Assembly (NCBI GenBank): GCA_035968315.1
Contig: JAVYIN010000009.1
Coordinates: 62,001-126,000, forward strand
Length of the DNA stretch: 64,000 nt
Reading direction: 5' to 3'
Source of the DNA: Nitrospira sp.
GTDB taxonomy: Bacteria; Nitrospirota; Nitrospiria; Nitrospirales; Nitrospiraceae
Shown: piece after piece, positions 29,300-32,410 of the stretch
Layout: each line of letters starts with the position of its first letter
Position numbering within the stretch: position 1 is the first letter of the stretch
Program-made: the position numbers and the translations under genes
Notes under the pieces: generated by a model
Database searches by the model: none
Seen by the model: only the letters and a program-made list of their open reading frames with translations
Told to the model about the DNA's origin: nothing

Positions 29300-29584
29300 C
29301 TATACCGCAAGCTTGGCGACGCGAAGCTCTTTGCGGTGTTGCTCGGCATGCCATAAGTCATATTGTGTTTGCTGATTGAGCCAGCTCTCAGACGACGTGC
29401 CAAACGCCATCGATAGGCGAACCGCCATCTCAGGGCTAATCCCCGCCCGACCATTCAAAATAGCAGAGAGGGTTTTCCTGCTAACACCCAAGGCCTGAGC
29501 AGCCTGCGTGACACTCAAACTGAGCGGCTCCAAACAGAGATGCTTGATGATGGTCCCAGGGTGAGGGGGATTGTGCATGCGCAT
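29300..29584 (-). CDS. higA: HigA-family antitoxin
   Basis: 94 aa HTH protein. [50 protein letters not shown] is the XRE/HigA core; NWLNQQ-like [12 protein letters not shown] follows. It neutralises the toxin and represses the operon. It lies 12 nt downstream of higB, the inverted toxin-first order typical of higBA. Confidence 0.92.
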
Positions 29585-29596
29585 GGAGTAACCTCG

Positions 29597-29875
29597 TCAG
29601 TGATAATCCTCGTAATCGACAACTTCTGCATCTTTGCCGACGAACCGAAAGGTGATCCGCCAATTCCCGCTGACCGACACTGCCCAGGTGCCTTTTCGAT
29701 CTCCCTTGAGCGGATGAAGACCTAACCCCGGCAGCGCCATGTCCTGTGGCGAGGTGGCCGCATTCAATTGGGCTAAAATCAGGCGCCCCCGCTCTGCATG
29801 TTGAGCCTGGATGCCTGATTTACTTCCGGCCTCAAAGAACCGGCCTAAGCCCTTATGCTTGAAGCTTCGGATCAC
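29597..29875 (-). CDS. higB: HigB-family mRNA-interferase toxin
   Basis: 92 aa of the RelE/ParE superfamily. VIRSFKHKGLGRFFE at the start, LHPLKGDRKGTWAVSVSGNWRITFRF in the middle and DYEDYH at the end match HigB, which cuts mRNA at the ribosome. The GTG at 29875 gives the standard length; a GTG three codons upstream would overlap the region just beyond the -10 box. Confidence 0.9.
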   Translation of the reverse strand: MIRSFKHKGLGRFFEAGSKSGIQAQHAERGRLILAQLNAATSPQDMALPGLGLHPLKGDRKGTWAVSVSGNWRITFRFVGKDAEVVDYEDYH

Positions 29876-29882
29876 ACGGCAC

Positions 29883-29911
29883 ACTGTAACCTATTACGTT
29901 ACGCCAGGCAA
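29883..29911 (-). promoter_or_regulatory. higBA promoter with overlapping operator
   Basis: On the minus strand, TTGCCT (29906-29911), a 17-nt spacer and TACAGT (29883-29888), 7 nt before the GTG start. The inverted repeat GTAAC-N7-GTTAC at 29886-29902 overlaps the spacer and -10 box, the expected place for the HigA operator. Confidence 0.55.
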
Positions 29912-29990: not shown

Positions 29991-30116
29991 AGGGGAGCAC
30001 GCCACCCGTATCGTTCCTATGCTCCCGGAGTGCGCACGCGGGATCAATCAAAGTGTGAAATCAAGGACGGTGCTCCCTCCATGGGCGCAGTAGGAACGAC
30101 ACAGGTGCTATTCCCC
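29991..30116. repeat. Variable-arm hairpin element, copy 1
   Basis: A ~78-nt core (about 30019-30096) aligns without gaps to the reverse complement of the element at 32289-32410; shared blocks include GCGCACGCGGGATCA and CGGTGCTC. The flanking arms (AGGGG, GCAC, CGTTCCTA and complements) pair with each other but differ from the arms of copy 2. Short spurious reading frames run through it. Confidence 0.65.
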
Positions 30117-30346
30117 TAAGAGCACACCCCAATAAGGGGTCCGACCCCTTATTCCCCACGTTGTGTCAGATTGTTAGACCTGACCCCCTATAGTTGTTCG
30201 CCGTAGCACCGGAGGTCATTGTCTTGGACACGATGGGTGTACTGTCGATCTCATGACAGGCAAGAATCTCCTCATGTATACTTACTGATATGAACCGCTG
30301 AGAATACGCCGCGCGGATCACACCGTTATTCAACAAGGAGAGCATC
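30117..30346. other. Intergenic DNA between the hairpin element and the tail-tube genes
   Basis: Contains the 23-bp hairpin at 30131-30153 and otherwise AT-richer sequence without a gene. AAGGAG lies ~8 nt before the tail-tube ATG. With copy 1 of the hairpin element it makes up the 470-bp gap after the higBA promoter. Confidence 0.45.
30131..30153. repeat. Perfect 10-bp stem-loop (AATAAGGGGT/ACCCCTTATT)
   Basis: Ten-base arms are perfectly complementary around CCG. A shorter relative (AAGGGG-N4-CCCCTT) is at 31313-31328, after the second tail-tube gene, so the pair brackets the two genes. Confidence 0.6.
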
Positions 30347-30799
30347 ATGGCGACGTTGCGCGATCGGCCCTATACCAACTTCAATTTTCTCGTCGACCTG
30401 GGCGACGGCAACAGCGAAGGACCGCGAGCAGGATTCCAGGAAGTCAGCGGCCTGGGGACGGAGATCGACGTGATCGAGTACCGCAACGGGAACTCGAAGG
30501 AAAACTCCGTCATGAAAATCACGGGGCTGAACAAAGCCAGCAACGTCACGCTCAAACGCGGGATCATCGGCTCGCTCAACCTTTATCAGTGGCTCGACCA
30601 GATTCGCAACGGCGATCAGAACGCATTGCGTACCGTGACAGTGCAACTGCAAAGCGAGGATCGCACAACCATCGTGCAAACCTGGAAACTGCTGCGTGCA
30701 CGCATCATCAAGCACATCAGTGGACCGCTCAACGGAAAAGGCACCGACGTGGCCATGGAAGAAATCGTGCTGGCCTGCGAACGTCTCGAAATGGAATGA
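30347..30799 (+). CDS. Contractile-tail tube protein (T4 gp19 family)
   Basis: 150 aa. The pattern (RPYTNFNFLVDL at the start, GFQEVSGLGTEIDVIEYRNGN, NVTLKRGIIGSLNLYQWL) is the gp19-like inner-tube family of myophage tails and extracellular contractile injection systems (Afp1/Pvc1-like). AAGGAG precedes the ATG. No sheath, baseplate, spike or ATPase gene is nearby, so this is an orphan or the nucleus of a dispersed system. A diverged copy follows after 27 nt. Confidence 0.85.
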   Translation: MATLRDRPYTNFNFLVDLGDGNSEGPRAGFQEVSGLGTEIDVIEYRNGNSKENSVMKITGLNKASNVTLKRGIIGSLNLYQWLDQIRNGDQNALRTVTVQLQSEDRTTIVQTWKLLRARIIKHISGPLNGKGTDVAMEEIVLACERLEME

Positions 30800-30826
30800 A
30801 GCTCCGGCTCTGCAAGGGAATGCCCC

Positions 30827-31279
30827 ATGGCCATATTGCGTGATCGCCCATACAGCAATTGCAACTTTCTAGTCGATTTTGACGACGGGAAAGCGTGGCA
30901 TACTACCGGCGGATTCAGCGAAGTGATCTTTCCACCGTTCGTGATTGCGGCCGGGGCGCGACGCGCGACGTCACGCAGTAAAAAGACGCCACCGGTTTTG
31001 CCTCCGGCACCATACAACCCGCACCTTATTCTCCGGCGCGGCGTGATCGGCTCACTGGATTTGTACACGTGGTGGAACAAGGCTCGTCAGGGTAAAGCCC
31101 CGGCGCGCCGCGCCGCGCGCATCCACTTGCTGGGAGACGACCATCGCACCACCGTGATGTCATGGCATTTCAGCAACGTGCGGCCGGTCCTCCTCGCCTA
31201 TTCGCCGCTGCAAGCGAACGAACCCGGCGTGTTGATCGAAACGCTGGAGATCGCCTTCGACCGAATGGAGATGCAGTAG
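30827..31279 (+). CDS. Diverged second tail-tube-like protein
   Basis: 150 aa, the same length as its neighbour, sharing LRDRPYSNCNFLVDFDDG, the RRGVIGSLDLYTWWN segment and the DRMEMQ end. The central region is replaced by a basic Pro-rich stretch (ARRATSRSKKTPPVLPPAP). It could be an Afp5-type second tube subunit, an adapter, or a paralogue drifting in sequence. It is probably co-transcribed with the first. Confidence 0.7.
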   Translation: MAILRDRPYSNCNFLVDFDDGKAWHTTGGFSEVIFPPFVIAAGARRATSRSKKTPPVLPPAPYNPHLILRRGVIGSLDLYTWWNKARQGKAPARRAARIHLLGDDHRTTVMSWHFSNVRPVLLAYSPLQANEPGVLIETLEIAFDRMEMQ

Positions 31280-31312
31280 CAGCCTGGCAGCGCTAACGGC
31301 CGAATCAAAGCA

Positions 31313-31328
31313 AAGGGGTCTGCCCCTT
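31313..31328. repeat. Short stem-loop AAGGGG-TCTG-CCCCTT
   Basis: A 6-bp perfect stem after the second tail-tube gene, related to the 30131-30153 hairpin. It overlaps the 3' end of the convergent DUF4190 gene by 2 bases and may act as a shared terminator. Confidence 0.5.
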
Positions 31329-31821
31329 AATTTGTTCCAGCAATAAACGACACGGCGCCGACGACATAGGCGGAGTATGCGAGGCCCAAGTAACTAATGA
31401 TGAGTCCGCTTAAGGCTGCTCCTGATCCGGCCAGCTGCGGATTGGCCCTGCATCTTCGGCGGGCCAGATGGCCAAACACGATGCCGGGAATGCTACCGAC
31501 CAGCGGAATCAAGAAGCTTGCGCCCGAAAGAACCAGAGAAGCGACAGCCAAGCCTGAAACGCGGCGAGCAGCAACGTCTCGAGCCAAAGCTCGAGCGTGT
31601 AGTGGGCGAAGCACGGGATTCAGGAGGAAGAAGCAAAGCGCAAAATAAGGAGGGAAGACTAGAAAAATAGCGCCATGTGCCATGGCCCAACCATGAAAGA
31701 ATGGCAGATGGTATTTGTCCGCGGCATCGGCTCCTACGTAGACGAGCACGCAGGCACCGAAGAAGGCCAATACAAGCTGCAGTGCCGTCACGGCACGCGA
31801 CTGTGGGACAGCTTCATTCAT
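31327..31821 (-). CDS. DUF4190-type membrane protein
   Basis: 164 aa from the ATG at 31821. Two N-terminal membrane helices, then a basic linker and the C-terminal DUF4190 hairpin of helices: LVLSGASFLIPLVGSIPGIVFGHLARRR and GLIISYLGLAYSAYVVG. Such domains occur in small bacterial membrane proteins of unknown role. Confidence 0.72.
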   Translation of the reverse strand: MNEAVPQSRAVTALQLVLAFFGACVLVYVGADAADKYHLPFFHGWAMAHGAIFLVFPPYFALCFFLLNPVLRPLHARALARDVAARRVSGLAVASLVLSGASFLIPLVGSIPGIVFGHLARRRCRANPQLAGSGAALSGLIISYLGLAYSAYVVGAVSFIAGTN

Positions 31822-32090
31822 GGCAGCTAACAAGGTTTAGGCCGATCCGCATAAGAGCCGAATTTGTCATTTTCCGTCCGTATAACACGCCACTTTTGCC
31901 CGTGAATAATACGCAGTAATCGACGCTCGTTCAATGAGTTGCGCCCGATTGACCATTTGTCACGGATTCCTATGTAGATCTGAATAACACCACTCATGTA
32001 ATAGATCCAATAAAAACAAAGGCTGCCCCCCTTCCCGCCTGCTGTTTTCAGTGAGGCGGCTGGCGGAGTCTCACCTGCGCGCGTCGAACG

Positions 32091-32205
32091 GGATCTGGTT
32101 CATCTGGTCTATCTCGTCTATTTGGTTTGTCTGGTTGATCGGACTGAACATTCATCCAGCAGAACCAGACAGACCAGAAAGACCGACTGACTAGACAGAC
32201 AAACC
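32091..32205. repeat. TCTGGTCTATC / CAGACAGACC hairpin repeat, copy 1
   Basis: Left arm 32091-32140 of degenerate TCTGGTCTAT/TCTGGTT units faces right arm 32161-32205 of CAGACAGACCAGA units. Copy 2 is at 36010-36090. Confidence 0.7.
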
Positions 32206-32288
32206 CGCGCGCGTTCCGCGAGCACAGAGACTTGCCGACCGGCTCGCCCCGACTCCCCCCATCGCGTTACTCCCTTTGTCATCATTTA

Positions 32289-32410
32289 GAGGCGTGGCTT
32301 GGGTGGTCTCCCACTGCGCGCATGAACCGAGCACCGCCCCTAATTTGATACTTCGACTGATCCCGCGTGCGCGGGGCGCGAGCAAGGGAGATCACCCAAG
32401 CCGCGCCTCC
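32289..32410. repeat. Variable-arm hairpin element, copy 2
   Basis: Outer 24-nt arms (GAGGCGTGGCTTGGGTGG... and its partner ending in CGCGCCTC) pair throughout, the two non-Watson-Crick positions being G-U compatible in a plus-strand RNA. The ~78-nt interior matches copy 1 in the opposite orientation. It ends 37 nt before the ATG at 32448. Confidence 0.65.

Follow-up and report, generated by a model that had tools for sequence, protein, structure and literature searches.

Two hairpins with a common core and different arms

This locus raises the question of what kind of element forms two hairpins that lie in opposite orientation, share a conserved core and differ in their arms: a structured RNA, a hairpin recognised as single-stranded DNA, or a plain transposon end. 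The DNA analysed is a 64,000-nt stretch of a Nitrospira sp. contig, referred to here as the window. A sequence-only reading had placed the two elements at 29991-30116 and 32289-32410, and both the coordinates and the opposite orientation were confirmed, with a covariance model of the family (R1, described below) matching copy 1 on the plus strand (G000:C9:92002-92108) and copy 2 on the minus strand (G000:C9:94296-94402), each with 108 bits. The element strand is defined here as the strand that reads TGCTC...GCGCA, which is plus for copy 1 and minus for copy 2. In copy 1, the fold delimits a variable left arm (29992-30018) that pairs with the right arm (30092-30116), and the family alignment (A2) and pair counts delimit a conserved core (30020-30089) composed of a TGCTC/GCGCAC box pair, a long loop and a GTGCTC/GCGCA box pair. 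In copy 2, read on the minus strand, the left arm (32386-32409) and right arm (32289-32312) were assigned from self-complementarity, and the conserved TGCTC...GCGCA core (32315-32384) from the family alignment and pair counts.

The cores of the two copies had been reported to align without gaps, and they form an 81-nt ungapped inverted repeat (30015-30095 against 32309-32389) that is 77% complementary; blastn aligns the copies with E=6e-11. The arms likewise pair within each copy as described, with 88% complementarity over 17 nt in copy 1 (30003-30019 / 30091-30107) and 92% over 24 nt in copy 2 (32289-32312 / 32386-32409). The two arm mismatches in copy 2, which had been called G-U compatible, are T-G and G-T on the plus strand. 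Relative to dinucleotide shuffles, the folding z-scores were -5.6 for the minus strand of copy 1 and -7.9 for the plus strand of copy 2, none of 200 shuffles folded as well as the window copies, and both copies fold better on the complement of the element strand.

A hairpin-repeat family of Nitrospira-type bacteria

The sequence-only reading had proposed a covariance-model search of related genomes. The model R1, built from the 28 copies of alignment A2, recovered 26 copies in the source genome (E at most 5e-6) and matched 43 of the 46 genomes sampled from the same family, probably the Nitrospiraceae, with 8 genera represented (E up to 1e-4); the three without a match are G267, G079 and G303. 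Most genomes of the same genus carry the element, commonly in 5 to 28 copies (R1), with G009, G049 and G066 giving no hit, and blastn also detected more copies in the source genome and in 38 of 146 relatives; many of the genomes surveyed are metagenome assemblies. Elsewhere in the phylum, R1 matched 0 of 152 other genomes (E up to 1e-4, a filter that is strict for large sets), and relaxing the E limit added a few weak matches from families of the order other than this one. At least 119 matching stretches came from a pattern scan across 84,980 species, and among the 80 matches listed from these, almost every record belongs to Nitrospira or Nitrospirae/Nitrospirota, apart from two contigs labelled Nitrosospira (CMX), which are probably mislabelled records, and one Elusimicrobia contig. 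This last contig (L208, JACPXA010000146.1), filed as Elusimicrobia, may be misbinned or may reflect a transfer. Searches of viral contigs and of a plasmid collection gave no match to the element, and an Rfam scan with a loose threshold returned nothing beyond chance matches to microRNAs and lncRNAs, which fall well short of the gathering score. The window hairpins are members of a large family of hairpin repeats, not named before, that is essentially limited to Nitrospira-type bacteria.

The family core reads TGCTC-S-C-N4-Y-GCGCAC, loop, GTGCTC-N5-AYG-S-GCGCA, in brief two imperfect TGCTC-N-GCGCA boxes that pair mutually across a short or long loop, the outer pair being the first TGCTC and last GCGCA, the inner pair GCGCAC and GTGCTC. 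There is one conserved T-C mismatch per box pair, which reads G-A on the complementary strand, and the core also has a two-base bulge. Long cores measure about 70 nt, with a loop of about 35 nt, and a short core of 47 nt is found in 64 of 90 copies taken from the pattern scan. Outside the boxes the arms comprise a median of 22 pairs and share hardly any sequence from one locus to the next, yet they are paired in nearly every copy; the whole element is about 100-130 nt long. In several elements (L265, L276, L108, L126 and L009), a second repeat, GCGTCTTGGCGCGC...GGGCGGGTGAGAAGGTT, breaks the right half at a similar place.

Pairing is conserved while arm sequence is not

Across the 28 copies, 89% of cells are standard pairs compared to 69% after shuffling and 36-54% after sliding, and both-sided changes were observed in 165 cells compared to 59 in shuffles, bearing in mind that neither cell counts nor copy counts equal independent events. 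Since dispersed copies could mislead covariation counts, orthologous sets were also tested. Among orthologues of the cstA-yajQ spacer from 10 species, 19 of 37 pairs have changed on both sides with 94.9% of cells paired, and 0 of 500 shuffles reached any of the five measures used, indicating that the structure is conserved. For 10 copies of a single type between atpD and atpC, arm sequences are more similar to one another, but here too they change in concert. One perfect long palindrome at a contig end (L259), probably an assembly fold-back, was excluded from the covariation sets and kept in the atp tree and the bulk copy counts.

The sequence-only reading had argued for selection on structure as opposed to a plain transposon end, and had named arms that fail to covary, or that are conserved as in a MITE, as evidence to the contrary. 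Its first part stands, with arms that covary both across loci and among orthologues. Its second part holds less completely: arm sequence is shared within subfamilies at many unrelated loci, and the element also disperses like a mobile repeat, although the family is at odds with a transposon end whose terminal repeats are fixed. Covarying pairs, a test for structured RNA, were found, but they do not separate RNA from folded DNA.

Placement behind genes

With genes called by a simple codon-score method, the core lies 14-36 nt past a same-strand coding stop in 67 of 150 copies, compared to 0.84% of random positions, and in 0 of 149 for the reversed orientation; none of 241 copies lies inside an ORF. 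In the source genome, the upstream gene is on the same strand for 20 of 26 copies, its stop usually 0-26 nt before the start of the model. The first paired base typically falls within a few nucleotides of the stop, reaching into the stop or the coding end in 45 of 97 copies, and the ribosome-binding site and start, where found, follow the arm at a median of 28 nt. Operon spacers that hold an element include atpD|atpC, sucC|sucD, folD|metF, purC|X|purS and cstA|yajQ, the gene names being assigned by reading protein sequences. The window copies are exceptions to this placement: copy 1 lies 745 bp past its upstream gene, and the closest upstream gene of copy 2 is on the opposite strand. A role for the element as a supplier of stop codons was also considered and rejected, the TAG excess not being significant relative to the baseline.

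The complement strand is the better-folding strand

Arm mispairs on the element strand are biased toward A-C (199, against 75 G-T, in 154 copies), and the bias persists when one copy per arm cluster is counted (108 against 43, p=1e-7), while ordinary hairpins past other stop codons in the same DNA, used as a control, gave 35 against 32. An A-C mispair becomes G-T (G-U in RNA) when read from the opposite strand, so it is the complement strand whose pairing has been preserved; that strand is the more stable one in 146 of 154 copies with DNA energies and in 112 of 154 with RNA energies. The G-U hint from copy 2 is thus part of a family-wide strand asymmetry. The ratio of A-C to G-T is 56:18 for copies near stops and 60:25 elsewhere; this equality away from stops implies that the asymmetry is a property of the element rather than of its neighbour's transcription, and an origin in transcription of the neighbouring gene is not supported. 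Deamination bias on transcribed coding strands would, moreover, push in the opposite direction to the observed asymmetry. A folded DNA strand or an antisense RNA would account for the asymmetry more readily than a structure in the sense mRNA would.

Dispersal and turnover

Several subfamilies share their arms, with GCCAGGTGCCC present at 21 distinct flanks and GCCTGGTCGTCC at 12, and nested and partial copies were found, indicating that the family has dispersed. Arm sharing within one genome is rare by an ungapped arm comparison, which misses bulged arms and so understates sharing (the subfamilies are revealed by exact-motif counts), and this rarity implies that current mobility is low. Between atpD and atpC, spacer types are scattered over the tree of the flanking genes (12 changes compared to a shuffled mean of 13.1, with type labels assigned by regex and some types lumped), and unrelated hairpins replace each other at this site. 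The cleanest empty site (L271), a plain 21-nt atpD-atpC spacer in one species, informs on presence or absence only, and displays no clear target duplication in a comparison that was not with a near-identical strain. No clean insertion with target duplication was seen among the sites compared.

The atpD-atpC spacer also contains a separate repeat. In L251, L268 and L269 it is a nearly identical 91-nt sequence with another palindromic repeat, TTAGGCGTGAGGGG...CACGTTTCACGCC, and spans two separate clades with diverged flanking genes; this points either to a further mobile repeat or to exchange of a very short patch.

A folded strand as the candidate functional form

Based on the data presented above, the explanation that we tentatively prefer is a hairpin repeat, dispersed and family-specific, that functions as a folded single strand, namely the complement of the strand carrying the preceding gene. 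The element is likely REP/ERIC-like in habit, recognised as a folded strand and settled in intergenic spacers. A putative protein would recognise the folded bottom strand at its box pairs, whose mismatches are G-A on this better-folding strand. The same protein may once have dispersed the element, along the lines, in principle, of the REP/RAYT and attC/IntI systems, which also use folded strands. Within a spacer, the closed hairpin would lift about 100-130 nt out of the transcript and leave the stop codon near the next ribosome-binding site, which could render the element tolerated or useful, and selection for the closed hairpin would favour compensatory arm changes while the arm sequence drifts. 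RAYT transposases and the integron integrase, the known systems tested, do not explain the element. Counting against this explanation are that no recognising or moving protein and no clean insertion with target duplication were found, the strict orientation, which mere tolerance does not predict, the low current mobility, and the position of the window copies away from stops.

The main rival is a role at the mRNA level, in which the element acts as a post-stop intercistronic structure of the sense transcript, influencing mRNA stability, RNase processing, ribosome stalling or translational insulation as enterobacterial REP or ERIC do. We regard such a role as possible. It would account for the strict post-stop position, the fixed orientation, the occurrence within operons and the retention of the element in the same spacer in many species, and there are precedents: ERIC influences the stability of upstream mRNA in an orientation-dependent manner (PMC2229807), and ribosomes stall at REPs lying no more than 15 nt from a stop codon (PMC12306157). 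However, the sense strand folds worse (A-C 108 vs G-U 43, with C-U mismatches in the core), the opposite of what selection on sense RNA would produce, and the asymmetry is equal for copies that do not lie past stops. The preferred folded-bottom-strand explanation and an mRNA-level role are not mutually exclusive.

We consider it rather unlikely that the family represents a lineage-specific system, without sequence relationship to attC or REP, for recombining or transposing folded single-stranded DNA, in which the elements mark gene ends in Nitrospira-type bacteria and a putative recombinase acts on them. Somewhat less likely still is the absence of structural selection, with the arms covarying for mutational reasons. 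Template-switch (quasi-palindrome) correction during replication perfects imperfect palindromes, and it could explain why the arms are near-perfect at almost every copy, with decayed copies making up just 3.5% of those far from stops. The conserved core mismatches and bulge nevertheless stay uncorrected, and the rules of position and orientation as well as the A-C / G-T asymmetry would need an additional cause.

Mobilisation of a classical REP or MITE through conserved ends, by Y1 (RAYT) or another transposase, is improbable. Like REP/BIME elements with or without RAYT, the Nitrospira elements are dispersed intergenic palindromes, often just past stop codons and inside operons, and shared-arm subfamilies and the presence of Y1_Tnp genes in most genomes are consistent with such an origin. 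On the other hand, the element is about 100-130 nt long compared to 20-40, is conserved in its core rather than in its ends, has arms that covary family-wide, and lacks a link to RAYT, which was rejected since the numbers of RAYT genes and elements do not go together (rho -0.20, p 0.12), RAYT is missing from ten genomes that carry 10 or more copies, and 0 elements were found in the RAYT-gene loci retrieved. By inspection, the family alignments contain no conserved GTAG/CGTC end tag of the REP type, and the outer arms vary between loci. ERIC (127 bp) is also an intergenic imperfect palindrome of similar length found past genes, but it has conserved terminal repeats and a TA duplication (PMC2229807), while the Nitrospira arms are locus-specific and shared only inside subfamilies, leaving only the core conserved. 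The Nemis/Correia elements of Neisseria are similarly small dispersed hairpin repeats that enter transcripts; they have fixed terminal inverted repeats, which the Nitrospira element lacks family-wide, and target duplications, of which no clear instance was seen here.

An antisense small RNA encoded by each element would explain why the complement strand folds better and bears G-U and G-A pairs, but it is very improbable, given that there is no Rfam match and that the short purine-rich stretch before the next gene, inspected by eye rather than systematically, resembles a ribosome-binding region with no obvious antisense promoter. Finally, an integron attC site or a direct relative, with a gene followed by a folded bottom-strand recombination site, has a similar architecture (two box pairs, bulged bases and a variable loop, with cores of 47 and about 70 nt here), a post-stop site in the gene's orientation and a favoured bottom strand, but this link was rejected as the least probable of all, because the boxes are TGCTC/GCGCA and not RYYYAAC/GTTRRRY, the paired arms reach about 22 bp beyond them, the copies are single and past housekeeping genes instead of in cassette arrays, and the integron integrase (TIGR02249) scores above cut-off in just 8 of 77 genomes, most carriers and the source genome having none.

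The family is a clear case in which structure is conserved and stem sequence is not, with compensatory changes among orthologues and a strand preference that can be measured. An ecologically important family of nitrifiers carries it throughout, within core operons for ATP synthase, succinyl-CoA synthetase and purine synthesis, and the repeat makes it testable whether selection on such hairpins behind stop codons acts at the DNA or the RNA level, and by what agent they are spread.

Surroundings of the window copies

Adjoining copy 1 are a HigB-like toxin (PF05015) and HTH antitoxin pair on the minus strand (29300-29884) and a repeat, GGGTCCGACCCCTTATT / TTAGACCTGACCCCCTA (30132-30194), of a kind that we take to be frequent near Y1 transposases. 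Two neighbouring T4 gp19-like tail tube proteins (PF06841) are encoded on the plus strand between the hairpins (30347-31279), and a distinct 21-nt inverted repeat, GTCTATTTGGTTTGTCTGGTT / AACCAGACAGACCAGAAAGAC, lies at 32116-32183 amid short repeats resembling GTCT/CTGG.
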